From an uncultured Flavobacteriaceae bacterium (lineage in GTDB: Bacteria; Bacteroidota; Bacteroidia; Flavobacteriales; Flavobacteriaceae), in NCBI GenBank assembly GCA_905479625.1, contig CAJQNF010000065.1, forward strand, positions 1 through 64,000: a DNA stretch of 64,000 nucleotides. The letters run 5' to 3'. Position numbers and translations under genes: made by a program. Positions 2,732-19,544 of the stretch are shown here, one piece after another; within the stretch, counting starts at the first letter, position 1; every line of letters begins with the position of its first letter. The notes below the pieces were generated by a model that had not been told where the DNA came from, searched no databases, and worked only from the letters and a program-made list of their open reading frames with translations.

Positions 2732-3421
2732 TTATTCTTTGATATTTACATCTTTGGATACATTCTTCATAAAAGTGATTCCATAGCCCAAAGCCTTTTT
2801 CATTTCCGGACTGTTCATTTCCCGCATCAGTTTCCAAATTGAATAAGAAGGAACACTTTCAGTTTCCATACTGTTAAACGCTTTCATCGCATTTTGTACA
2901 GTATCCAGGACTTCTGGTTGGGTCATTTCTTTTATAATAGATAATATGGATACGATATTATTCGCTAATTCCTTCAGATCCTGAGGACTAAAACCTTGTA
3001 CAATATTATCGACAATCGGCCCTATCTCTCTGATAAAATCAAAATAACCTTTTTGTTCCATGAGGTTCATTTGCTTGGTGAAATCGATGATGACTTCATT
3101 AGCAATAGGTCCAACCTCTTTACCCAAGTCAACAGCCATCTCCAAAGTATCCATGACTGTTTTGATATTACCGGTATTACGTAAAAATGAAACTGCTAAT
3201 CCGGTTAATTCTGACGGATCAAGTTCGACCTGTCTTTTATCCAACTCATTTACTGTTGAATCATAAACATCTTTACCAATGATACTGAGATCACCAATAA
3301 GGTCTTCCACCATATTGGACTGCAACTTTTGTTGATGCACATAGCCTAGAATCAGGTCCAGTTTTTTGTCAAGCGCATCAATTTGAACTTGCATATTGGT
3401 ATCTTCCATTACTGCTTTCAT
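2732..3421 (-). CDS. DUF1641 family protein, partner of sulfide:quinone reductase
   Basis: 229 residues, soluble, mostly helical, without cysteine motifs. It fits the DUF1641 family, repeatedly found beside sqr-like flavoprotein genes and of unknown biochemical role. Its start overlaps the stop of sqr by 4 bp (ATGA), so the two are translationally coupled and probably needed in matching amounts. A part in membrane attachment or in handing sulfur from SQR to the TusE/DsrE pair is possible but unproven. Confidence 0.75.
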   Translation of the reverse strand: MKAVMEDTNMQVQIDALDKKLDLILGYVHQQKLQSNMVEDLIGDLSIIGKDVYDSTVNELDKRQVELDPSELTGLAVSFLRNTGNIKTVMDTLEMAVDLGKEVGPIANEVIIDFTKQMNLMEQKGYFDFIREIGPIVDNIVQGFSPQDLKELANNIVSILSIIKEMTQPEVLDTVQNAMKAFNSMETESVPSYSIWKLMREMNSPEMKKALGYGITFMKNVSKDVNIKE

Positions 3422-4656
3422 ACGCTTACTGTTTTTTTACCCGCCATCGTCATATCGGCTTCAATTGGTAGTTCTCTTCCTTTCAATAAAATATGCCAGT
3501 AGATCCATCTAAAAAGAATTTTACCGTAATGGTTCATTTTCGTGTTTTTTAACAAACCAAATGGTCCGATTCCCGGTAGTGGAAAAGTTCCAGGTAATGG
3601 CTCTGTTTCGTAGTTAAAGTCGATCAAGGCGCCTTTACCGTATCCCGTTTCAATATAACAATTGGCATGACCGTCAAACTTTGCAGGTAATTCTCTGCCT
3701 TCCATGGCCGCTAGAAGATTTTCCATTAAAATCTCAGCTGCAAAATGTGCTACTGAACCTGCCTTGGAGGTAGGAATATTAGCTGCATCGCCAATGACAA
3801 ATATGTTTTCGAATTGTTTTGACTGCAAGGTGTGTTTGTCTGTGGGTACGTAATTCATATCATCACCCAAACCACTACGCTCGATCATATCTGATCCCAT
3901 ATTCACAGGAACAATAGTCAGAATATCGAATGGCACTTCCCGATCATCATAAGAAACCAGTTTTTTATTTTCGTTGTCAACATGGCTTAAATAGAAATCA
4001 GCCACTACATCTATATTTTTTTCTTCCAATAGATCACCGAGTACCTTTGAGGCCACTGGTTTTGTAAATGCACCCGACATTAAAGTAACATAGGAGATAT
4101 CAACCTTATCTCTCATTCCGCGTTCAGCAAAGTAAGCTTCAGCGAGACATACAAACTCTATGGGGGCCACAGGACATTTATAAGGTAGCTCAGGAATACA
4201 CATGACCAATTTACCGCCATCCCAGTCTTTAAATCGTTTATGAAGTGCAACTGCTCCTTCAACTGTATAAAAGTCAAAAATATCTTTGTACCACAATTTA
4301 CCTGTAAGTCCTTCAGTTTCTGATGGCCTTGTTTCTGTTCCTGTCGCGATGATCAGAAAATCATAATTCAATACTTTGCCACCTTCGAGAAGTACTTTGT
4401 TTTCTTCACCGACGATTTTGTCAATAGGACTGAAAATCACATTTACTCCTGGAGGAAAGAAATCATATTTTGGTTTGACGACATCTTTTTTATTGTAAAT
4501 TCCAAAAGGAATAAACAGGAATCCAGGTTGGTAATAATGAGTTTTATATTGGTCAATGATGGTGATTTCCCATTCGTCCTTTTCAAGTTCATGGTGCAAT
4601 TTGTTTAACATCATTGTTCCGGCAGTTCCGGCACCTAAAATCACTAACTTCTTCAT
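3418..4656 (-). CDS. sqr: Sulfide:quinone oxidoreductase (FAD-dependent)
   Basis: 412 residues. It starts with the FAD-binding GAGTAG loop (residues 8-13) and has the second nucleotide fold motif IIATGTETR near 102-110 and the FAD-contacting VIGDAANIP near 287-295. Cys161 in PYKCPVAPIE and Cys333 in ANCYIETGYG are at the positions of the redox-active pair that takes up sulfide sulfur; Cys153 and Cys170 lie close by. The C-terminal stretch KILFRWIYWHILLKG is an amphipathic membrane anchor near the quinone site. It oxidises sulfide and passes electrons to menaquinone, forming polysulfide or a persulfide. First gene of a four-gene operon; a Crp/Fnr-type site and a TATATTTG box lie directly upstream. 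Confidence 0.9.
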   Translation of the reverse strand: MKKLVILGAGTAGTMMLNKLHHELEKDEWEITIIDQYKTHYYQPGFLFIPFGIYNKKDVVKPKYDFFPPGVNVIFSPIDKIVGEENKVLLEGGKVLNYDFLIIATGTETRPSETEGLTGKLWYKDIFDFYTVEGAVALHKRFKDWDGGKLVMCIPELPYKCPVAPIEFVCLAEAYFAERGMRDKVDISYVTLMSGAFTKPVASKVLGDLLEEKNIDVVADFYLSHVDNENKKLVSYDDREVPFDILTIVPVNMGSDMIERSGLGDDMNYVPTDKHTLQSKQFENIFVIGDAANIPTSKAGSVAHFAAEILMENLLAAMEGRELPAKFDGHANCYIETGYGKGALIDFNYETEPLPGTFPLPGIGPFGLLKNTKMNHYGKILFRWIYWHILLKGRELPIEADMTMAGKKTVSV

Positions 4657-8755: not shown

Positions 8756-9778
8756 TTAATTTTTGATCAATGGTAAATTTTTTGGTACTGAAGAACCAAC
8801 ACCCCATTGATTTGCCCCCCAGGCAGCATTGGAATGATATATTCCGTTCATTCCAAAAGTCATACTGTAGGCATCATAACCCAGTACTTGTAACCATGCT
8901 GTAATCACTGCTGAAGTTTGTCCAGTGTAGCAGTACGTGATGACCTTGGCATTTTTGTCAGGGTTCAAACCTTTATAACCATTGCCATCCAGTTTTAATT
9001 CTTCTTTAACTCTTAGAGCGTTTTTGATATGCCCAAAATTGCCATAGTCAGTGTCACTGAAATAGTTATTGATAAAATAGTTGTCTGGATTGTTTAGTAC
9101 GTCTGTTCCTTTGGCTGTTTTAAAACCTCCTGTTATAACTGCTTCTATTCGTTGTCTTAAAATATCACCTCCATCTGTAGAATAAATGTCTATTATTGGA
9201 TCATTAAATGTTTCATTGGCCGGGGCATTATTCGCCGCCCAATTGCCATGATTCTGGGCTTCATCTCCGGTGTTACCATTCCATGGTCCGGCTGTTGCGG
9301 GATTCCATCCAGACATCCCCCATTTGAGTGACTGCGCATTAGCATGACCAGCAAGGCGTAAAAGCGATACGGCATAGCAGGCAGTTTGACCGGTAAAACA
9401 AACAACTAAAACTTGCTTGCTCGCAGCATCGGCTTCTTTAAGAATATCTGCAAAAGCGATGTGTTTTGCTCCTTGAATATGACCTGTATTATAGGCCTCT
9501 AGAGATCTTATATCTAAGATAGTGTACTTGTTTAAGAAGGCATCAAGATCGGCTTCGGCTGGAGCACCAGCAACAAATTTAACCTCGCCGCCTGGGCCAC
9601 TTAAAATATTGGTTAAATCCAGCTCATTTTCCATCATGTGAGTTTTCATGAGGTCAAATGCTGGTTGTAAAATTGGGTTTTCAGGATTGATATCATCACC
9701 TCTGTCACATGAACTGAGCAGTAACACGGGTACACATAATAATGCTAGGACGAATAAATTTAATTTTTTCATAATCAT
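8756..9778 (-). CDS. Exported lipoprotein with two rhodanese domains, both with catalytic cysteine
   Basis: 340 residues. Lipobox LSSC with Cys24, so anchored on the periplasmic side of a membrane. Two rhodanese folds: the first at about 65-165 with active loop CFTGQT (Cys127), the second at about 190-330 with CYTGQT (Cys283). Each has the usual D-I-R or N-Y, GHI and GM(S/N)G landmarks. Rhodaneses move sulfane sulfur, classically from thiosulfate to a thiol or cyanide; here it probably handles sulfur made or used by the PsrABC-type enzyme. Cotranscribed with a second double-rhodanese gene (30 bp upstream) and a porin (17 bp downstream). The start could also be Met3 (9772). Confidence 0.88.
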   Translation of the reverse strand: MIMKKLNLFVLALLCVPVLLLSSCDRGDDINPENPILQPAFDLMKTHMMENELDLTNILSGPGGEVKFVAGAPAEADLDAFLNKYTILDIRSLEAYNTGHIQGAKHIAFADILKEADAASKQVLVVCFTGQTACYAVSLLRLAGHANAQSLKWGMSGWNPATAGPWNGNTGDEAQNHGNWAANNAPANETFNDPIIDIYSTDGGDILRQRIEAVITGGFKTAKGTDVLNNPDNYFINNYFSDTDYGNFGHIKNALRVKEELKLDGNGYKGLNPDKNAKVITYCYTGQTSAVITAWLQVLGYDAYSMTFGMNGIYHSNAAWGANQWGVGSSVPKNLPLIKN

Positions 9779-9808: not shown

Positions 9809-10807
9809 TTATTCTATTACGGGGTACATGTTGACTTCTTTTTTTGTAAAAGCCTCCCAATTATTGTCTTTTAAAGTTTTGTGCATAAAGCTGTTGGCTC
9901 CATAGGCTAGATTGCCTGCATTATAACCAAGGACGTTAAGATAGGCCACAACATAGGCTGTTTCCTGACCAGTTGGTCCATAGACCAAAACTCTTTTGTC
10001 AGTGGGAATTGTGAGCAAATCGGTTGTGGAACTGAGAGAGCCATTTGGTTCGTATTGAACTGCTTGTGGGATATGTCCCTTTGCATATCTGTCAGCACCA
10101 TTATAATCTATGATATAGAAGTCATTAGGCTGTTCGAATACGGCTGATGATTTTACAATAGATTCTTTATAAGGCGTAGCAAATGCTTTCTCTAATCGAG
10201 CTCTCAAAATGGCTTCTCCATCATTTTTACCAGTGCTAATGGCAGGAGCCGTTCCATTGGCGTTTTTTTCGTAATTGGAGGTTTCTAGTTTTGAAAGAAA
10301 ATCGTCAGAAGTATTTTTTAACCATGAATTTTCTGCAAAATCGACTCTCCAAGAGCTCATTCCCCAGTTCATACTAAAAGCGTTGTCATACCCGGCTATT
10401 CTTAGCAAGCTTGTGAAATAGGCTGCAGACTGCCCTGAATAACAGACCAAAACGATCTTGTCATACTCGGAAGGAACAATACTATTTTCGAAATAATGAA
10501 GAAGATCAGCTGGTTGAACATTGGCGGCATTTTTAATGTGGCCGTATTCAAACCAGGTTGCGCTCCTAATATCGATGATATGATATGTAGGATTCTTAAA
10601 ATTTTTCTTCACCTCATCGGAAGGAATTAGGGCAGGTGCAGCATCAGTATTAATGAAATTCCTGTTGGTTTCAAGGAAACTCAGCAGGGTTTCAAATTCA
10701 CTCGGGGGATTCAGATTGTTAGATCGTTCGTTTGGCTCGCTAAAACTACTGATTAATAGAGTAGCTGGAAGGAGCATGATTACGAGAATGATTGATAATT
10801 TTCTCAT
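9809..10807 (-). CDS. Exported protein with two rhodanese domains, the second without catalytic cysteine
   Basis: 332 residues with an N-terminal signal segment (about 1-20) but no clear lipobox cysteine. Domain one (about 55-160) keeps an active loop CYSGQS with Cys122; domain two (about 195-320) has GPTGQE, with Gly277 in place of the cysteine, so only one half can carry sulfur. It is a close paralogue of the next gene (shared WGMSSW/WGMSGW, GHIKNA, tandem layout), from which it differs by the lost second site. First gene of the rhodanese/porin operon, with a Crp/Fnr-type operator upstream. Confidence 0.87.
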   Translation of the reverse strand: MRKLSIILVIMLLPATLLISSFSEPNERSNNLNPPSEFETLLSFLETNRNFINTDAAPALIPSDEVKKNFKNPTYHIIDIRSATWFEYGHIKNAANVQPADLLHYFENSIVPSEYDKIVLVCYSGQSAAYFTSLLRIAGYDNAFSMNWGMSSWRVDFAENSWLKNTSDDFLSKLETSNYEKNANGTAPAISTGKNDGEAILRARLEKAFATPYKESIVKSSAVFEQPNDFYIIDYNGADRYAKGHIPQAVQYEPNGSLSSTTDLLTIPTDKRVLVYGPTGQETAYVVAYLNVLGYNAGNLAYGANSFMHKTLKDNNWEAFTKKEVNMYPVIE

Positions 10808-11180: not shown

Positions 11181-11209
11181 AAACACCCCCGATTTTGGCG
11201 AGGGTGTTT
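11181..11209 (-). terminator. Terminator of the seven-gene PsrABC operon
   Basis: AAACACCC (11181-11188) pairs with GGGTGTTT (11202-11209), eight base pairs, with a GC-rich loop containing CCG/TGG; on the minus strand it is followed by TTGTTGATT. It lies 42 bp downstream of the last gene (stop at 11251). The T-tract is short, so efficiency is uncertain. Confidence 0.65.
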
Positions 11210-11250: not shown

Positions 11251-11880
11251 TCAACAACCACCTTCAGGCATTTTCTTTTTCTTTTTAGGTTTGGTGATCA
11301 CTTTTTTCTTTGCCGGTTTAGGCTTTGTTTTAGCGGTGATTTTTTTAATAGGTTGTATGCTCGCATTTTTCATGGTTTGCGCAAAATCAAAGAGAGGTTT
11401 TTCCACAGCGAAACTGCTTATGTGGAATTGCTTATTATCATAAAAAGAATGAATGCTCAATAGTTTTAATTGTTCATAGCCTAGTTGGTACAAAAGCATG
11501 CAGGCGGCATTCGCTGTTTCTGGAGTTTCGCCGTAAACGACAATTGGTTTATTATTTGATACAGCTTCTTTTATAACTCTTGTCGATTCTGGATCAAGTA
11601 ATTGACTTTTTGGAATATTTACAGAATTATCTAGATGCCCTTTTGAATAATCGAAATGACTTCTTACATCGATAAGCAAGTAGTCGGCTGCATCTATTTT
11701 TTGGAAATCGGTTAAAGACAGGATATGACTCTGATTTGCAATAAATGTCAAGGTTTTCTCTGAACTGTTTACAAAATTAAATTCAGGCCTTTTAAAAGTG
11801 AGTAAACTGATTATAATGACCAACAAAAAAAGGACTGCTGATATGGATATTCTTCTGGTTTTTTCTAATTCTTTCATCAC
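11251..11880 (-). CDS. Membrane-anchored rhodanese-like protein without catalytic cysteine, C-terminal Lys-rich cysteine tail
   Basis: 209 residues: a short basic N-terminus, one membrane helix (about 11-29, so the body lies in the periplasm by the positive-inside rule), and a rhodanese fold at about 45-150 (LLIDVRSHFDYSKGHLDNSVNIP). The position of the active cysteine is Gly117 (VVYGETPETA), so classical sulfurtransferase activity is not expected. A flexible Lys/Pro tail from about 170 ends in TKPKKKKKMPEGGC with Cys209 as the last residue. The neighbouring upstream protein has the identical end. The tail looks like a swinging arm offering a thiol, similar in idea to the DsrC arm; that function is inference. 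Last gene of the operon. The start could be Met2. Confidence 0.8.
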   Translation of the reverse strand: MMKELEKTRRISISAVLFLLVIIISLLTFKRPEFNFVNSSEKTLTFIANQSHILSLTDFQKIDAADYLLIDVRSHFDYSKGHLDNSVNIPKSQLLDPESTRVIKEAVSNNKPIVVYGETPETANAACMLLYQLGYEQLKLLSIHSFYDNKQFHISSFAVEKPLFDFAQTMKNASIQPIKKITAKTKPKPAKKKVITKPKKKKKMPEGGC

Positions 11881-11911
11881 TTACAGGTATGATTTGAGTT
11901 TTCTTGTATAA

Positions 11912-12577
11912 TTAACAACCACCTTCAGGCATTTTTTTCTTTTTCTTCGGTTTGGTCACTACTTTTTTTGGTGGCGAAATTTTCTTAATCTCAGGTTCAA
12001 TTTCAAGTGTATCATTGGCAACTCCAAAATATTTTCCGGCAGCTTTTCTAAACGAATAGAGTTCAAAGGCCTCTCTTGACATGGTTTCTTCAGGTAGTTT
12101 AGGTTCAATGATAGTTTGAAACCATGCATTGAGTCCTCCTTCGAGAACATATAGCCTTTCATATCCCATTCTATTGCCAATCAACCAGGCTTCATCAGCT
12201 GTAAAATTATCAGTAGAGAAAAGTATTACGTCATATATGTCCTGATTCAGGTAAGGATTTAGTTCTTTATTTAGAATTTGCGAAAGCGGAATATTTATGG
12301 CATTAGGAAGCGTGTATTTCTCAAATTCTTCTGTTGTTCGAGTATCAATAAGAAGTAATACAGGATCCTGATTAACAATTCTGTCAGCCAGAATGTCTGT
12401 GCTGATATATCTTTCAGTACTGATCATGTTTTTCACAAAAAGTTCAGGAGTTATACCTTCATGTTGTTGATGCTTCGGGATCACCATTAAGCCTCCGGCC
12501 AAAATGATCAGGATAAGCGCTAAAAACTGATAACTTCTTTTTACCAAGATTTTTTTTGTAGAATATGTTGCAGACAT
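11912..12577 (-). CDS. Membrane-anchored rhodanese-like protein whose only cysteine is the C-terminal residue
   Basis: 221 residues: basic N-terminus, membrane helix (about 16-33), then a rhodanese fold (about 55-155; LLLIDTRTTEEFEKYTLPNA, LEGGLNAWF). The active-site cysteine is replaced by Ser121 (ILFSTDNFTADEA). The protein contains one single cysteine, Cys221, its last residue, on a tail TKPKKKKKMPEGGC identical over 14 residues to that of the next gene, although the folded domains differ strongly. This strong constraint on an otherwise disordered end argues for a function of the terminal thiol, for instance accepting sulfane sulfur or docking to a partner. It follows the YeeE/YedE transporter genes by 13 bp. 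Confidence 0.8.
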   Translation of the reverse strand: MSATYSTKKILVKRSYQFLALILIILAGGLMVIPKHQQHEGITPELFVKNMISTERYISTDILADRIVNQDPVLLLIDTRTTEEFEKYTLPNAINIPLSQILNKELNPYLNQDIYDVILFSTDNFTADEAWLIGNRMGYERLYVLEGGLNAWFQTIIEPKLPEETMSREAFELYSFRKAAGKYFGVANDTLEIEPEIKKISPPKKVVTKPKKKKKMPEGGC

Positions 12578-12590
12578 AAGTAGCTATTTT

Positions 12591-13181
12591 TTAGTAAAAA
12601 ACTTTTTTAACTCGATTTCTAATGCTGTCTGACAGGTAAAAAGCCAGGATAGCTATGAGGGTAAAAATAAAGATGATCAAATAAGGTGAAACACCTAATG
12701 TTTCGTCCAAAGTGACATGCCCTAGGTTGTGCTTTTCATAAAGAGGTTGAAGCCAGGTAAATGATTCAGAGAAAATAAGGATTCCAATAAAAAGGCCCAG
12801 CGTAAATACAATTCCATCAATCTTCCCAATTCCTACTGCGCATAAGCTGGTGCCCGGACAGAATCCTCCGGCAAGAAAACCTATTCCCATGATAAAGCCA
12901 CCAACAATAGCCGCCCATAGGTATGTTGGCTGGACAAAGAGCTGCGTAAGGTCTATCCAATTCAAATAATCCATATAATGCAAACCAATAAGGGCAACTA
13001 TAGTGGCAGTAAAGAAAACTTTTAAGACGGCAAAGTCATAGCCATAAAATACACCGACTAGTTTGCGAGATGATGAAAACCCTGAAGCTTCCATGATATA
13101 TCCGAAGGCTATTCCGATAAGAATCGCTAAAACAAAATTCCATTCAGGAGGAATTAATTCATTTGGAATAAGAGGTCCCAT
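12591..13181 (-). CDS. YeeE/YedE family transporter, half-size, with GFCPGTS motif
   Basis: 196 residues, about five membrane helices. The motif AGGFCPGTSLCAVGIG (near residues 107-122) is the cysteine-containing signature of one half of YeeE/YedE proteins. The family includes TsuA, which imports thiosulfate by relay along conserved cysteines, and many members are split in two genes, as here. With the neighbouring half (18 bp upstream) it probably forms one transporter for thiosulfate or another sulfur species across the inner membrane. Cotranscribed with the PsrABC-type genes and the two tail-bearing rhodanese-like proteins. Confidence 0.87.
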   Translation of the reverse strand: MGPLIPNELIPPEWNFVLAILIGIAFGYIMEASGFSSSRKLVGVFYGYDFAVLKVFFTATIVALIGLHYMDYLNWIDLTQLFVQPTYLWAAIVGGFIMGIGFLAGGFCPGTSLCAVGIGKIDGIVFTLGLFIGILIFSESFTWLQPLYEKHNLGHVTLDETLGVSPYLIIFIFTLIAILAFYLSDSIRNRVKKVFY

Positions 13182-13199: not shown

Positions 13200-13730
13200 T
13201 TAAATCCAGTTTTTTCTAAAAAAGTAAGCCACAAGATATCCTGTTCCAAATATGGAGATCATGCTAATAAATCCTGCAGTAGCCATTACTGAAATACCGC
13301 TTAATGCTGCCCCGCTTGTACAGCCTCTTGCAATCTGAGCCCCAAAGCCAAATAGGAGGCCGCCAATGAGTGCAAAAACCAATCTTCTGTTTACTGAAAT
13401 TTTGGGAGAATGCTGTGTTTTTAATTTGATTCGTCCTGTTAAAGCCCCTGAAAGAAAGGCGCCTAAAATGACACCCAGCGCTTCGAAAACGAGCCAGTTA
13501 TTCATTGGAGATGATTCTCCGTTTAAAAACTTTTTATAATAGGCATTATTTTCTGTATGTTCTGGAGATACTTTATTGACTACGGTCACTACACCACTTT
13601 TGACCGCGCCGCTGGCACCAAGGCCTCTTCCAGTGATGTAAAAGGTAAAAATGATCAAAAGCCCAAGAAGGAAACCGCCAAAATAAGGGTTCCAGTATAC
13701 GTGTCGATTTTGTTGTTTTATTTTTTCCAT
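13200..13730 (-). CDS. YeeE/YedE family transporter, half-size, with ARGCTSG motif
   Basis: 176 residues, about four to five membrane helices. The motif FGAQIARGCTSGAALSG (near residues 133-149) carries the conserved cysteine of the other YeeE/YedE half. A loop after the first helices (about 35-75) is polar and probably periplasmic. It ends 18 bp before the second half-gene and starts 4 bp after the NrfD-type gene, so the pair is tightly built into the operon. Probably the partner subunit of the sulfur-compound transporter. Confidence 0.87.
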   Translation of the reverse strand: MEKIKQQNRHVYWNPYFGGFLLGLLIIFTFYITGRGLGASGAVKSGVVTVVNKVSPEHTENNAYYKKFLNGESSPMNNWLVFEALGVILGAFLSGALTGRIKLKTQHSPKISVNRRLVFALIGGLLFGFGAQIARGCTSGAALSGISVMATAGFISMISIFGTGYLVAYFFRKNWI

Positions 13731-13734
13731 TATT

Positions 13735-14676
13735 TTAATATAGGTATCTGGTTAATTGTCCTGCTTCAATCATCACCATTCTAAATATGAGGCCTCCCAA
13801 CAGAATTAAGATGGCGGGAATAGCTACAGGAACTTTGTAGCCAAGAAGTTCAATGCCTTCCAAAATGGCCGGAAAAATTAACCCAAGAATGATCACAAAA
13901 ACAAAGAACATAACTGTGTATTCTCCGCCAATTAATATGTCAAGGGCTTCCAGTTGAACGGCCGAACCTGCATACATTCCCATAATCATGTGAACAATTA
14001 GAGCAAGTTCAATAATGATCAATGCCAAATCAATTTTACTGAACAATTTCCTTTCGAAATGGTCTTTCGAAAAAAGGATGATACAAGCCGCACCGGTGGA
14101 AAGTCCTGAAACAAGAAAAAGAGGCCCTAAAATGGCATTATTCGATAATAGCCTGGCATTGAAAGCTGAAAGTAGAATTCCCGTATAAATTCCCAGAATG
14201 AGTGATAATGGTAATAGGATGATTGCCAAATTTCTTCGATTTTTAATAAGATACAGTTCAAGTTGTTGTAGCCATTTAATTTTTAAATTCCATTTAGGGA
14301 AGAGTTCGGTAAAGTAACTAAATACCCAAAGAAAAGATCCGATGGTGATCAACAGTAGGACCCATGCGCCCCAAGACATTGGTGACTCTAATCTGATAGT
14401 TGTGTATAACCTCCACACATAGAGTTTGTGCGTTAGGTCATAAAATAAGGCTAGCAGTCCAATACTCAGTGCAAAGAGTACAATGATCATGGCAGGTTTA
14501 ATAGCTGTTTGTACATCCTTTTCGCGTTTTAAAATCGTAAAGAGTGAAGCAAAAAATATGATCCCTGCTGCCATCCCCCCTAGAAAAAGATATAGTGAAA
14601 TGGGAAAATGCCATATTTCCAGATACGGATCAATTTTAGGAATATTTCTACCGCTGATAAATATTTCTTCTTGCAT
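13735..14676 (-). CDS. nrfD: NrfD/PsrC-type membrane quinone subunit
   Basis: 313 residues with about eight to nine membrane helices. The start IDPYLEIWHFPISLYLFLGGMAAGIIFFAS is typical of NrfD/PsrC proteins: a membrane-entry helix followed by a Gly-rich quinone-site helix. It anchors the molybdenum and iron-sulfur subunits on the periplasmic face and exchanges electrons with menaquinone. It follows the iron-sulfur subunit gene by 13 bp. Whether electrons run from quinone to a sulfur compound (reduction) or back cannot be told from sequence. Confidence 0.88.
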   Translation of the reverse strand: MQEEIFISGRNIPKIDPYLEIWHFPISLYLFLGGMAAGIIFFASLFTILKREKDVQTAIKPAMIIVLFALSIGLLALFYDLTHKLYVWRLYTTIRLESPMSWGAWVLLLITIGSFLWVFSYFTELFPKWNLKIKWLQQLELYLIKNRRNLAIILLPLSLILGIYTGILLSAFNARLLSNNAILGPLFLVSGLSTGAACIILFSKDHFERKLFSKIDLALIIIELALIVHMIMGMYAGSAVQLEALDILIGGEYTVMFFVFVIILGLIFPAILEGIELLGYKVPVAIPAILILLGGLIFRMVMIEAGQLTRYLY

Positions 14677-14689
14677 GATTTTTTTGGTA

Positions 14690-15223
14690 TCAGATTAAAT
14701 AATAAACATTTGGTTTTGTTCCTGCCTCAGGGGCGAGTACTTTGAATTTTCTTGACTGGAGTAAATATGAAACCTTGCTTGTTGGATCGTCAAGATCTCC
14801 AAAATACATGCATTTAGTAGGGCATACCGAAACACAGGAAGGAAGTTGTCCTTCTTTTAATCTGTGTGCACAGAAGGTGCATTTATCAACATAACCATCA
14901 GGATGTTGGAACCTGGCATCGTAAGGACATGATTCTATACATGCCCCGCATCCAATACATTCGTTCTCTGTGACAAGAACAATTCCTCCTTCTGCCACAT
15001 GGCTAGCACCTGTTGGGCAGCATCTTACGCATGGGGCATTGTCGCAATGATTGCAGCGTTCAGATTTGAGTTCGAGTTCAACATGTGGGTAGGAACCATT
15101 AACAGATTCAGTTACCCAATCCCGACAATATCCTATGGGTACGTTATTTTCAGTCTGGCAAGCGACAACACAATCGCTGCAACCAACGCATTTCAGCGTA
15201 TCTATGACCATGGCATATTTCAT
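14690..15223 (-). CDS. Four-cluster ferredoxin subunit (PsrB/PhsB/TtrB type)
   Basis: 177 residues with four groups of cysteines for [4Fe-4S] clusters: CVGCSDCVVACQTEN (12-26), CNHCDNAPCVRCCPTG (about 57-72), CIGCGACIESCPYDA (about 90-104) and CTFCAH...CVSVCPTKC (about 117-140). This is the normal electron-transfer subunit of complex iron-sulfur molybdoenzymes; it lacks a signal peptide and would be exported together with the Tat substrate encoded upstream. The start overlaps the stop of the catalytic subunit gene by 4 bp (ATGA). Confidence 0.92.
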   Translation of the reverse strand: MKYAMVIDTLKCVGCSDCVVACQTENNVPIGYCRDWVTESVNGSYPHVELELKSERCNHCDNAPCVRCCPTGASHVAEGGIVLVTENECIGCGACIESCPYDARFQHPDGYVDKCTFCAHRLKEGQLPSCVSVCPTKCMYFGDLDDPTSKVSYLLQSRKFKVLAPEAGTKPNVYYLI

Positions 15224-17451
15224 AGTATTGTCTCTTTAGAAGGGTTGTCAAGTAATATTTTCACAAAGTTCCCGCGCAATCCGGTACCTCCCATAAGTGG
15301 ATCTACATTTATTTTTGTAATCAGTTCCGTATCACTGGCTCCTTTGCCATGCGCTCTTGATAATTTTTTATTAGCATGACCAAATCCGTGGTACATGTAT
15401 ACAGAGTCCCATCGAATCCTTTCAGTTACCCTGACCTTGATGGGGAAGGTTGACTTTTTACCATCCTGATTTTGAAGCCAGACTTCTTGATTATTTTTCA
15501 ATCCTTCAATTCTGGCTACTTTTGGGTTTACCCATAACATGTTTTCGTTTGTAAGATCGCTTAGATTTGGATTGTTAATTGTTCTACTGAATGTATGCAT
15601 GGGTGATCTTCCATAATTAAGTCGGTAGAAACCTTGCTGAGGGCTATCATGAGAGGTGTATACCGGAATAGGGTCTAATCCGTGACTAGCCAGTTCTTCA
15701 GAATAGAATTCAATTTTTCCACTGGGAGTAAAGAATTCATGAGTTTTACCTTCTTGCATATACAAGGCTCCTGATTTTCGTTTATAGTTTTTTACACCAA
15801 TTTTTTTCATCTCTTCCAGTGAACTGCCCATCTCTTTTAACTGCCAGTCGATTACCTCTTCAAAGTCATTATAATTAAAGTATTCGGCTAAGCCCAATCG
15901 ATTGCCTATCTCTTTGGCCATCCACCAGGCTGGCTTAGAATCGTATTTTGGAGGAACGGCAGGAGATCTTAAAGCGATTGAAGGCTCCCGGTTGGGTGCA
16001 GATCTGATGCCATCAAAACGTTCCAAATAGGTGCATTCGGGAAGAATAACATCAGCATATCCTGTAATTTCCATTGGCATAGTGTCCATGACGACCATAA
16101 AGTCAAGAGATTCAATGGCTTCTTCTATGACCTCTCGCTTAGGTACGGAGGTGACAAGATTAGTACCCGCAACAAACCAACCTTTGATCGGATATTTTTG
16201 ATCAGCAGCCGGTATTGAGGCTTTAATAACTTCCATAGTACTTCCCATTTCTGCAAATGGATATTTTTCGACAAGTTCTTTCCAACCCCATTTTGGATGC
16301 GGGTATGCCGGGTGTGGAAATTTGGGAATCGCTATTTTTTCTTTAAAGTAGAACCCACCTCTGTTACCCCATGAACCAAGAAGGCCATTGAGTATGGCTA
16401 TGGCACGTTCTCTTTGAGAATCATCACCATACCAGGTAACATGACGACCAGGATGAACTATGGTTGAAGGAGCAGCGGCTGCCATAAGTCTTGCCGTTTT
16501 GCGTATATCTTCTGGTTTAATAGTTGTAATACCATAGGCCCATTCAGGGCTAAACGATTTTACATGTTTTTTTAAGGCCTCAAAGCCAGAGCCGTACTTT
16601 TCTACATAGTCCTTATTATAAATGTCTTCATAGATCAAAACATGCATCCATGATAATAATAGGGCGATGTCTGTAGCAGGTTTAATGGCCAGCCAATGTT
16701 GAGATTTACTGGCCGCCGTAGAGCATCTTGGGTCTACAGTAATGATGCTGGCTCCATTGTCGATCGCATCCGACATTTCCTGTACCTGGCTGTTGTGCAT
16801 GTTTTCGCCTAGGTGCGATCCTATAAGTACAAGACATTTTGTATCTCTAATATCAGTGGGTTCAGGGGATCCCACCCAGGAGCCAAAAGTGAGGCCAAAT
16901 CCCGTTTCTCTAGGTCCGCGACATTGGGCATAAGCTGGTTCGGCAATAGTATCTGAACCATAGGCTTTGAAGAGATGCTCCAAATGACTTCCTGGAGAAC
17001 CGTGTTTGATCAGCGCCATTGATTCAGGGCCATATTCGGCTTTTATTTTCTCCATGTTTTCGGCTACCAGATCGAGTGCTTCTTCCCAACTCGCTTCTCT
17101 AAAGCTGTCTTTTCCGTCAATTTTGGTTCTTATCAATGGTGTTTTTAGACGATCAGTATCAGTGTACATTCCAACTCCTCCTGTGCCTCTTGGGCAAAGT
17201 CGCCCGTAACAATGAGGATCGTTTTTGTTTCCAATGATTTTTTGGATGTGACCCTTCTGATCTGAATAAACCCATGCGGCGCATTTCCAAAAACAAACTT
17301 CACAGTAAGTCGCTGTTCTTTTTAATTTTGAGCCTATATTTTGCTTAAGATTATGATCAGAAGGTAAGGCGTCAAGGGCAGTTGTTGTGAAAGCGATTCC
17401 ACTGGCACCGAGGGCTGATATTTTAATAAATGACCTTCTTGAATTATCCAT
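15220..17451 (-). CDS. Periplasmic molybdopterin oxidoreductase, catalytic subunit (PsrA/PhsA/TtrA-like)
   Basis: 743 residues. Tat signal peptide with SRRSFIK at residues 4-10, so folded with cofactor before export. The FS0 [4Fe-4S] site is formed by Cys50, Cys53, Cys57 (CEVCFWKC) and Cys86 (CPRGTGG). Cys177 in AQCRGPRET is the likely molybdenum ligand, as expected for polysulfide, thiosulfate and tetrathionate reductases. A bis-MGD binding fold and a C-terminal molydopterin dinucleotide domain (GRSPMHTFSRTINNP, about 618-632) follow. The CEVCFWKC form differs from classical PhsA, so the substrate (polysulfide, thiosulfate, tetrathionate or sulfite) is open. First gene of a seven-gene operon with its own Crp/Fnr-type site. 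Confidence 0.88.
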   Translation of the reverse strand: MDNSRRSFIKISALGASGIAFTTTALDALPSDHNLKQNIGSKLKRTATYCEVCFWKCAAWVYSDQKGHIQKIIGNKNDPHCYGRLCPRGTGGVGMYTDTDRLKTPLIRTKIDGKDSFREASWEEALDLVAENMEKIKAEYGPESMALIKHGSPGSHLEHLFKAYGSDTIAEPAYAQCRGPRETGFGLTFGSWVGSPEPTDIRDTKCLVLIGSHLGENMHNSQVQEMSDAIDNGASIITVDPRCSTAASKSQHWLAIKPATDIALLLSWMHVLIYEDIYNKDYVEKYGSGFEALKKHVKSFSPEWAYGITTIKPEDIRKTARLMAAAAPSTIVHPGRHVTWYGDDSQRERAIAILNGLLGSWGNRGGFYFKEKIAIPKFPHPAYPHPKWGWKELVEKYPFAEMGSTMEVIKASIPAADQKYPIKGWFVAGTNLVTSVPKREVIEEAIESLDFMVVMDTMPMEITGYADVILPECTYLERFDGIRSAPNREPSIALRSPAVPPKYDSKPAWWMAKEIGNRLGLAEYFNYNDFEEVIDWQLKEMGSSLEEMKKIGVKNYKRKSGALYMQEGKTHEFFTPSGKIEFYSEELASHGLDPIPVYTSHDSPQQGFYRLNYGRSPMHTFSRTINNPNLSDLTNENMLWVNPKVARIEGLKNNQEVWLQNQDGKKSTFPIKVRVTERIRWDSVYMYHGFGHANKKLSRAHGKGASDTELITKINVDPLMGGTGLRGNFVKILLDNPSKETIL

Positions 17452-17513: not shown

Positions 17514-17557
17514 TAAAATTAGAGGGGAGCAGGAGTTGTTTTGATGATAAATGTCAT
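17514..17557 (-). promoter_or_regulatory. Promoter and operator of the PsrABC operon
   Basis: Minus-strand TAATTTTA (17521-17514) resembles TAnnTTTG and would start transcription near 17510, about 59 nt before the ATG. ATGA-TAAATG-TCAT (17544-17557) is centred at 17550.5, again exactly 36.5 bp from the last base of the box, near -40.5. Confidence 0.7.
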
Positions 17558-17564
17558 ATCGAAA

Positions 17565-17580
17565 TGTGACCCGAGTCACA
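17565..17580 (+). promoter_or_regulatory. Perfect TGTGA-N6-TCACA operator upstream of the multihaem cytochrome gene
   Basis: TGTGACCCGAGTCACA has two perfect six-base arms (TGTGAC/GTCACA) and is identical in its defined bases to the enterobacterial Crp consensus. It is centred at 17572.5, near -71.5 relative to the start expected from the box at 17633, a classic class I activator position. It lies only 22 bp from the operator that serves the divergent PsrABC operon, so one regulator could control both directions. Confidence 0.75.
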
Positions 17581-17632
17581 AAGCGACTTATAAAAACTGT
17601 CATTGCTCATGGTTTGGAATTTTGTTGCATCG

Positions 17633-17640
17633 TAGCTTTG
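17633..17640 (+). promoter_or_regulatory. -7 box TAGCTTTG of the multihaem cytochrome gene
   Basis: Perfect match to TAnnTTTG; transcription would begin near 17644, about 11 nt before the ATG at 17655. A TTTG at 17613-17616 is closer than the usual 19-21 bp spacing. This placement argues that the TTG or ATG codons at 17541/17544 are not the real start. Confidence 0.6.
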
Positions 17641-17654
17641 TTGAAAAAGCAGGT

Positions 17655-19544
17655 ATGGATTCTTCTAAGTCCAAATTTATCAATAGGATGTTGCCATTTT
17701 TATTCCTATCGATGCCGTTGATGGTTTGGCTGGGGATGAAGTATGATTATTTTGATCAGGAACAAATCAAAGCTTCATCAGATTATATAACATTGAACGT
17801 ATCCGAGCAATCATGTGTGCAGTGTCATGGTCATATACAAGGGTTTTCAAAATACCACGATCCTGAATTGATAGGATGCGTTGCTTGTCATTCGGGTAAT
17901 GCCGCAGCGGATGATAAATTAATGGCTCATCAAGATATGTTTGTTATTCCAGGAAATTTAAGTAATGCGGCCAACACCTGTGGCACCTGTCACCAGGATG
18001 AATTACACAAAATTGAACATTCTTTGATGACGACCAACAGCGGCCTGGTGGCGGTGGATAAATTTGTGTTCGGTGAAACCGACACTCCCGATCATCATTT
18101 TGACATCCGTGAACTAGGACATAGCCAGGCTGACGATCACCTTAGGGATCTTTGTGCCAACTGTCATCTAGGTGCCCAAAAGACCGACCTTGGTCCGATT
18201 AGCCAATTGAGCAGAGGAGGAGGTTGTAATGCTTGTCATCTGAATTATTCAGATAAGGCAAAAACACAGCTGACCGATTATCTTGCATCGAATAAAGAAA
18301 AACTACCCCAAATGCATCCGTCAACAGATATTATGGTCACTGATAAACACTGTTTTGGTTGCCATAGTCGTTCAAGTAGAATCTCGACCAATTATATGGG
18401 ATGGCATGAAACTTTATTAGACGAATCAGCGGTGACAGATACTGTTTCCTATAAAGTATTTGAGGATAAAAGGGTCTACCAATACAAGGGTGCCGACGTA
18501 CATCATTCAAAAGGCCTTTTATGTATTGATTGTCACAGCTCACACGAGGTGATGGGGGATGGTAAGGACTATTTGCACGAAGAGGACGCCGTGTCACTGA
18601 GCTGTTCTGATTGTCATTACAAAGACAAACCTCTGACAATGACCTATGATTCTCTTGATAAGGAATCCATGTTAGTCTTTATGCATCGGAACTATACCCA
18701 TAGTGATAAAGAGATCCTAAAAGTTAAAAAAGACCAGCATCCTCTGGTAAATACTTATGTAGAACAAGGGCAGGTTTATCTTATTGGTAAAAAAGATGGA
18801 GAAAAGCATTTGATCAAAAAGCAAAGTGAAAAATGCAGCAGGGATGAAGCGCATCAATCACTAAGTTGCGCATCCTGCCATTCCCAATGGGCCCCCAGAT
18901 GTATTGGTTGCCACAATACGTATGATGACATGGCACAGGGTTACGATCTTTTGGAAAAGAAAATGACCAAAGGAACCTGGATAGAACATGTCTTTGAATT
19001 TGATGCCGGATTGCCGGCTATGGGCGTTAGAATGGCTCCTGAAGGAAAAAAAATAGAACCTGCCATCCCGGGAATGATCCTGACAATAGATCACGGCAAT
19101 CACAAAGATTCCTTGCTTCAGGACAATACATTTGAACGTCTGTATGCCCCCAATGCGCCACATACAATTACCAGTGAATCGCGCAGTTGTGCCTCTTGTC
19201 ATACAGATCCTGCAGCACTTGGATATGGAAAAGGAAATCTAAATTATGTTTTAGGCCCAGGCTCGGGAACATGGGTCTTTGAACCTGAATATGCCTTACA
19301 TCCTATAGATGGTTTGCCTGAAGATGCCTGGATTCCTTTTTTAAAGGATTTTGAGACTGAAAAAATTTCAACACGCAGTGACTTCAGACCCTTTAACCTT
19401 CAGGAACAACAGCAAATGCTGAGGGTAGGTGCCTGCTTGCAATGTCATAAAGAGGATTCGAAAATCATGAACGAATCTTTAAAGACTGGTTTAAATCCAT
19501 TACTTTTGAAGCTTTCTGACAAATGTTTATTACCCAAATTCTGA
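17655..19544 (+). CDS. Membrane-anchored dodecahaem cytochrome c
   Basis: Counting from the ATG at 17655 the protein has 629 residues. A basic N-terminus is followed by one membrane helix (about 9-31, MLPFLFLSMPLMVWLGM), then a periplasmic body with twelve CxxCH haem-binding motifs (CVQCH, CVACH, CGTCH, CANCH, CNACH, CFGCH, CIDCH, CSDCH, CASCH, CIGCH, CASCH, CLQCH). It is probably an electron carrier or a reductase for sulfur or nitrogen oxides working with the divergently encoded PsrABC-type complex; I do not recognise an established enzyme family (octahaem tetrathionate reductase has fewer haems). The frame is open back to 17541, but that part holds two operators and the promoter, so the later ATG was chosen. 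Confidence 0.85.
   Translation: MDSSKSKFINRMLPFLFLSMPLMVWLGMKYDYFDQEQIKASSDYITLNVSEQSCVQCHGHIQGFSKYHDPELIGCVACHSGNAAADDKLMAHQDMFVIPGNLSNAANTCGTCHQDELHKIEHSLMTTNSGLVAVDKFVFGETDTPDHHFDIRELGHSQADDHLRDLCANCHLGAQKTDLGPISQLSRGGGCNACHLNYSDKAKTQLTDYLASNKEKLPQMHPSTDIMVTDKHCFGCHSRSSRISTNYMGWHETLLDESAVTDTVSYKVFEDKRVYQYKGADVHHSKGLLCIDCHSSHEVMGDGKDYLHEEDAVSLSCSDCHYKDKPLTMTYDSLDKESMLVFMHRNYTHSDKEILKVKKDQHPLVNTYVEQGQVYLIGKKDGEKHLIKKQSEKCSRDEAHQSLSCASCHSQWAPRCIGCHNTYDDMAQGYDLLEKKMTKGTWIEHVFEFDAGLPAMGVRMAPEGKKIEPAIPGMILTIDHGNHKDSLLQDNTFERLYAPNAPHTITSESRSCASCHTDPAALGYGKGNLNYVLGPGSGTWVFEPEYALHPIDGLPEDAWIPFLKDFETEKISTRSDFRPFNLQEQQQMLRVGACLQCHKEDSKIMNESLKTGLNPLLLKLSDKCLLPKF

Follow-up and report, generated by a model that had tools for sequence, protein, structure and literature searches.

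In DsrC and TusE, sulfur is carried by a cysteine near the end of a flexible C-terminal arm; these proteins are cytoplasmic, have a fold unrelated to the one described below, and their partner is DsrAB. SoxY is not known to be membrane-anchored or built on a rhodanese, and Sud of Wolinella succinogenes is a periplasmic rhodanese-fold protein that binds sulfur on the rhodanese active-site cysteine and hands polysulfide sulfur to Psr. The terminal cysteine of SoxY has an established sulfur-binding role according to PMC6067878, where the lipoate-binding LbpA proteins, with a conserved cysteine near the C-terminus that often stands beside glycine, are likened to SoxY. SoxY variants adjoin otr or YeeE/D in symbiont genomes (PMC11237559), Sud may enhance Psr (PMC4288042), the cysteine-bearing partner YeeD works with the transporter YeeE (PMC13047784), and TsoB is listed with two Sec (PMC13188914).

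The window analyzed here, i.e., the whole stretch of 64,000 nucleotides from an uncultured Flavobacteriaceae bacterium, carries on its minus strand, in this order, genes for a PsrA/PhsA-type enzyme, PsrB, PsrC, two half YeeE proteins, RhdA and RhdB, so that the operon shared with PsrABC and YeeE in the preliminary description of this DNA was found again. The PsrA/PhsA-type molybdopterin enzyme (positions 15220-17451; PF00384) has a twin-arginine-like N-terminus, SRRSFIK, and scores 477.8 bits against the NCBIfam PhsA equivalog model, under the cut-off of 694. It is followed by a PsrB-type 4Fe-4S subunit (14690-15223; PF13247, E 5.6e-24), a PsrC/NrfD-type membrane subunit (13735-14676; PF03916, E 5.1e-39), and the two halves of a YeeE/YedE-type sulfur transporter, YeeE_b (13200-13730; PF04143, E 3.9e-25) and YeeE_a (12591-13181; PF04143, E 2.7e-18). 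The last two genes encode the rhodanese-like proteins RhdA (11912-12577; PF00581, E 1.7e-12) and RhdB (11251-11880; PF00581, E 4.5e-14), located where they had been placed before, although the strand had not been given. Directly 3′ of rhdB, on the same strand, there is a terminator-like stem of 11 pairs (11181-11209), which is consistent with a transcription unit ending there, in a scan that returned 13 such sites in 8.1 kb versus 5.8 expected. Two double rhodanese genes of the cluster are also on the minus strand: RhdC (9809-10807) has a cysteine in the first active-site loop only and carries no tail in the window, and RhdD (8756-9778) has a cysteine in both loops. A divergent multihaem cytochrome c, distant from ExtM, is encoded on the plus strand (17541-19544; NF040943, 244.9 bits, cut-off 800). 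A type III sulfide:quinone reductase at 3418-4656 scored 643.1 bits against a cut-off of 525; the matched model is named for a selenoprotein subtype, and the window gene reads through without Sec. When named genomes were scanned, 104 RhdA relatives were found, and the best 80 were kept as named loci. Among these best 80 of 104, the closest relative of RhdA is that of the flavobacterium Lutimonas halocynthiae (71% identity), and 50 of the 80 loci have a relative of the multihaem cytochrome c within the fetched stretch.

RhdA and RhdB both end in TKPKKKKKMPEGGC, and a 14-residue end, with cysteine as its last residue, is common to both. In RhdA, the larger protein, this residue (Cys221) is the only cysteine, whereas RhdB has two. 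The aligned catalytic position is occupied by Ser121 in RhdA and Gly117 in RhdB, and by cysteine in RhdC and RhdD of the same cluster. The shared end, the lone terminal cysteine of RhdA and both replacements had been reported from the first inspection and were reproduced by our alignment. The RhdB reading frame was called from a GTG located just upstream of an ATG, and most relatives begin with MKELE, so that the true start is probably the ATG at 11877, giving a protein of 208 aa with Gly116 at the catalytic position. In a Pfam scan (E up to 0.01) only PF00581 was detected in RhdA and RhdB, above the cut-off for both. At the nucleotide level, five synonymous codons and the stop codon differ between the rhdA and rhdB tails; hence, the tails are not a fresh DNA copy, and a recent gene conversion is unsupported.

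The AlphaFold models (mean pLDDT 85.2 for RhdA and 88.4 for RhdB) predict an N-terminal helix (residues 14-31 in RhdA and 2-28 in RhdB), which would serve as a membrane anchor, and then a rhodanese fold, with an extra helix at 168-183 in RhdA; the nearest solved structures to both models are rhodaneses. Both models finish in a low-confidence arm, predicted to be flexible. In RhdA the arm comprises residues 186-221 (11912-12022 of the minus strand, stop codon included), and with block pLDDT values of 48-71 it is read as disordered. The N-terminal 70 residues include a hydrophobic segment in 100 of 103 RhdA and 77 of 78 RhdB proteins. In the five fusions of a YeeE half with a rhodanese that were examined, the rhodanese-side membrane helix is kept, after a loop with 2-6 Lys/Arg. 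In addition, lipobox-like N-termini were observed on tail proteins of L021, L022, L084, L095, L098, L104 and L108, where the lipobox and hydrophobicity scans followed simple custom rules and one match, L098_7759, was judged false; in some RhdB relatives the anchor is probably a lipid. Because the fusion helices and the lipobox-like N-termini both point outward, we infer from them and from the anchors that the arm of the tail proteins lies in the periplasm, and the periplasmic facing proposed earlier for RhdA and RhdB is the most likely one. The layout that had been described, a membrane anchor and a rhodanese scaffold with a long basic arm, persists as a prediction in its first two parts. The arm need not be basic, since the tails can be near neutral (EEEGGC, VEVEEGGC), as in L106 and G352.

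RhdA ends in cysteine, or in cysteine plus one residue, in 80/80 of the kept named loci (the best 80 of 104 relatives). Because the tail itself served as one of the two scan patterns, the RhdA matches were split by pattern: the terminal cysteine was present in all 43 proteins that fit only the non-tail pattern, with the other kept proteins fitting both patterns (15), the tail only (18) or neither (4). By comparison, only 4 of 979 non-family ORFs of the fetched loci (at least 200 aa) have a cysteine in the last two residues, and the conservation of the tail beyond chance, as suggested at the outset, is borne out. Searching 395 genomes of the phylum with a profile (E up to 1e-10) yielded 72 matches in 65 genomes; in many of them the aligned part stops before the tail, and when all 72 C-termini were read, 64 had a cysteine as the last or last but one residue. 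Seven of the eight matches lacking it were taken as other rhodaneses, as the 3.3-3.5 kb fetched for each contain no YeeE, and the eighth, from G350, has a frameshift that puts an EGC end into a different frame. Two further tailed fusions beside octaheme tetrathionate reductase (OTR) genes, L218 and L219, were absent from the profile match list. Glycine precedes the terminal cysteine in 63 of the 64 tailed matches; the sole exception is a YeeE-linked member ending RFQC (L191). The ends vary (GGC, EGC, MGC, GGCD, GGCE, GGCG and more), although GGC is invariant in the RhdA alignment (14/14 rows). The invariant part is a cysteine at or beside the C-terminus, not a basic arm.

When homologues lacking the terminal cysteine were looked for in the same operons, no such RhdA was found in the 80 kept loci (best 80 of 104), whereas RhdB has lost it in L069 and L076, where RhdA alone keeps the tail; the RhdB of L081 is a short frame. 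The tail is found on only one protein in L171 and in the YeeE fusions of L169 and L170. Gene labels denote the best BLAST match to the window proteins, and the second tailed gene of L095, L106 and L110 is labeled RhdA. The unrelated rhodanese L097_19378 is included in the counts of the catalytic position and left out of the tail-identity, anchor, background and end-class counts.

As far as the sequences go, the catalytic cysteine is lost in most members. The 104 RhdA rows have Ser (90), Cys (6), Gly (5), Ala (2) or Tyr (1) at this position, the 78 RhdB rows Gly (64), Ser (5), Ala (3), Asn (2), His (2) or Cys (2), and the 10 fusions Ala (7), Gly (2) or Ser (1). The cysteine is kept in five RhdA relatives (L085, L089, L090, L138 and L139), the sixth being that of L097_19378, and in two RhdB proteins (L103 and L109).

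We then compared the RhdA and RhdB tails in 75 of the 80 operons; L069, L076 and L081, without a tailed RhdB, were excluded, as were L057 and L112, which have no complete RhdB on the contig. Tails of the same operon were 89% identical over 12 residues, versus 63% between operons, and over the nine residues before GGC the values were 85% and 51%. In 2000 shuffles the identity reached at most 69% (12 residues) and 57% (nine residues), which is not a strict probability because related genomes are not independent. The RhdA and RhdB cores are 19% identical on average across these operons, which agrees with the strong divergence of the folded parts first noticed in the window, and orthologous RhdA tails average 85% only when the cores are 80-90% identical. 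The distances of RhdA and RhdB tails correlate at 0.82, and at 0.70 (partial correlation) after core distances were removed. Judged by the sequences, the tails of one operon co-evolve. RhdC with intact catalytic-type Cys motifs carries a matching tail in four loci (L021, L022, L106 and L110). In L095, L104 and L108, RhdC ends EVCD and both RhdA and RhdB end GGGCD; the agreement is confined to the final two residues, which may mean that the terminus as such is what matters.

The gene company of the tailed proteins was analyzed in 62 family loci, i.e., the 64 tailed matches minus the RhdB matches of G000 and G191. With PsrA accepted within 8 kb (E up to 1e-90) and OTR over the TIGR04315 cut-off (for example, 567.7 bits versus 375), PsrA was found at 25 loci, OTR at 31, both at none and neither at six. 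Of the loci with neither, G070 carries its PsrA on a separate contig, four (L175, L176, L178 and L182) have an RMGC end beside a YeeE pair with no PsrA or OTR within 8 kb, and the sixth is L191. In L176 the rhodanese ending RMGC adjoins a double rhodanese. Outside the window, 61 loci were examined for YeeE, and 60 of them have both halves, the exception being G352; at 31 of the 61 a YeeE half and the rhodanese form one reading frame ending in cysteine. Whether tailed proteins always lie beside psrABC and YeeE genes had been posed as a check; this held for the YeeE halves with the one exception, whereas PsrABC is not obligatory and OTR is found at half of the loci. YeeE is not the sole partner either, because G352 (99% complete), with both tail proteins and PsrABC, keeps the tails without a YeeE_a match in the whole genome at E up to 1e-3, and likewise G020 (84% complete) has tail proteins and PsrABC with no YeeE_a match. 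Conversely, PsrA (E up to 1e-90) was detected in 43 genomes, 18 of which have no tailed member within 8 kb: 14 belong to family f32, whose PsrA is only 43-45% identical, G070 and G417 have contig breaks, G350 is frameshifted, and G192 represents a real absence, with PsrABC and a YeeE pair in an operon that lacks RhdA, and without an RhdA match in its genome at E up to 1e-10. L214 has PsrABC and a YeeE pair, then a multihaem cytochrome, and no tail protein. The gene directly before psrA in L166, L167, L168 and L174 encodes a small protein rich in cysteine (nine or ten residues); that of L166 is a MerR-type regulator.

How do these proteins compare with the described systems? The arm had been likened to that of DsrC. 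The likeness of an arm with a terminal thiol stands, but DsrC is cytoplasmic and RhdA and RhdB have no DsrC fold, only PF00581; SoxY, a periplasmic carrier, offers the closer arm and is the best analogue. Its cysteine stands among glycines at the very C-terminus, like the GGC end of RhdA and RhdB, and three fetched SoxY sequences end VTIGGCGG. The SoxY fold (PF13501) is nevertheless different, and no SoxY match was obtained in the own genome and 30 relatives in a search that had no positive control match; 14 named SoxY control genomes gave no match in either SoxY search. In the phylum, SoxY was over the cut-off in 45 of 395 genomes and without any match in 348, and G064 alone combines a SoxY above the cut-off with a tailed family member. 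RhdA and RhdB resemble Sud in their rhodanese fold and lie in a psr operon; their anchors suggest export, and they may work with Psr. PDB entry 1qxn (listed as sulfide dehydrogenase), which we take to be Sud, matches the RhdA profile with an E of 9.1e-5. The difference is that RhdA and RhdB of the window have no active-site cysteine and bear the thiol on an arm, and the same loss in the active-site loop separates them from active rhodaneses (thiosulfate sulfurtransferases), whose fold they have. The N-terminal part of TsoB, a rhodanese/DsbD fusion-like selenoprotein (NF045694), matches RhdA residues 20-171 (E 3.1e-5), but the 22.3 bits are far below the cut-off of 805. The YeeE halves of the window belong to the same transporter family (PF04143) as YeeE/TsuA, which goes with YeeD, and SoxT; YeeD, however, is TusA-like and acts on cytoplasmic thiosulfate, whereas in the window the transporter is split and the carrier seems to face the periplasm. 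LbpA has the lipoate-binding fold of an Hdr-like pathway, not a rhodanese. By their sequences, then, RhdA and RhdB are neither SoxY, nor DsrC, nor an active rhodanese, and in a literature search, with subscription papers mostly outside its scope, no title or start of an abstract described such an arm.

We consider it rather probable that RhdA and RhdB are periplasm-facing swinging-arm sulfur carriers on a demoted rhodanese scaffold. A membrane helix (or a lipid in some RhdB relatives) would anchor a rhodanese fold that has no sulfur-binding cysteine of its own, and the working thiol would have been relocated to the tip of a flexible arm, some 35 residues long. The terminal cysteine, which we infer carries sulfur, would be loaded with sulfane sulfur in the form of a persulfide or thiosulfonate. 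The arm would swing among its partners: the split YeeE on its periplasmic face, intact rhodaneses in systems that have them, and a sulfur enzyme of the periplasm (PsrABC in the window and OTR in other lineages). The direction in which sulfur would flow, the surface at which the arm would dock and the partner that it would serve all belong to this proposal, in which the two or three carriers of one operon share one tail because they would dock at the same sites.

The same co-evolution within operons would also fit a shared docking site at which no sulfur is carried, the common end holding the complex together by binding PsrABC or OTR, or by a disulfide between RhdA and RhdB, since two identical terminal thiols could pair; G352, which retains its tails without a YeeE_a match, fits this as well. 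We find it unlikely, however, because a docking peptide needs no cysteine at its end, yet the cysteine varies less than its neighbours (EGC, MGC, GGCD), and the single-tail systems (L171 and the fusions L169 and L170) imply that pairing of RhdA with RhdB is not general, in line with L069 and L076, where the RhdA tail stands alone. A tail that is a C-terminal address without chemistry, or a product of chance, is extremely improbable. It is true that Lys-rich C-termini, when two or three proteins within an operon have them, might look like a sorting or processing signal, but the tails follow the operon, the figure of 4 in 979 for non-family ORFs argues against chance, and in a search of 40 genomes with a tail-only profile all 27 matches at E below 1e-3 were RhdA or RhdB, so that a general sorting signal, a possibility raised with the first description, was rejected. 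The 14 matches elsewhere were weaker (E 0.024 to 2.7), and the sensitivity of this profile is limited, because at the 1e-3 threshold it misses the GGCG-type tails of G037.

Two further readings give the thiol another task. In the first, which concerns metals, haem or oxyanions, the terminal cysteine could bind or reduce a metal(loid), for example selenite or tellurite, as happens in Ext-type operons; the multihaem cytochrome of the window resembles ExtM, and the double rhodanese of L176 resembles ExtH (71.2 bits, cut-off 200). Both matches are far under their cut-offs, the partners are of the sulfur type (a PF04143 transporter, a PhsA-like enzyme and OTR), and there is no second cysteine or histidine among the invariant columns near the tail; with sub-threshold matches only, the selenite/tellurite Ext system was discarded, and the reading as a whole is very unlikely. 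Very unlikely indeed is a sensor, in which the tail thiol would report periplasmic sulfane sulfur and not serve its flux. YeeE-like SoxT proteins are tied to both import and signal transduction in PMC11582611, and Crp-like genes occur in the fetched stretch of 35 of the 80 named loci, but the carriers lie within the unit of the catalytic genes, usually in two copies, which would suit flux better.

Returning to the sulfur carriers, we see an even chance that they form a further class of swinging-arm carriers across Bacteroidota, next to SoxYZ and DsrC, in which the rhodanese thiol would have been moved to a C-terminal arm. Such carriers would occur as one to three co-evolving proteins or as a fusion with half a YeeE transporter, and would serve either a PsrABC-type molybdoenzyme or OTR. 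If this is true, a catalytic domain has become the scaffold of a thiol that sits elsewhere, and a carrier that the terminal residue makes recognizable would provide the bacteria without a SoxY match with a sulfur pathway open to testing. Such a carrier could explain why the genes for YeeE, PsrABC and octaheme tetrathionate reductase travel together.
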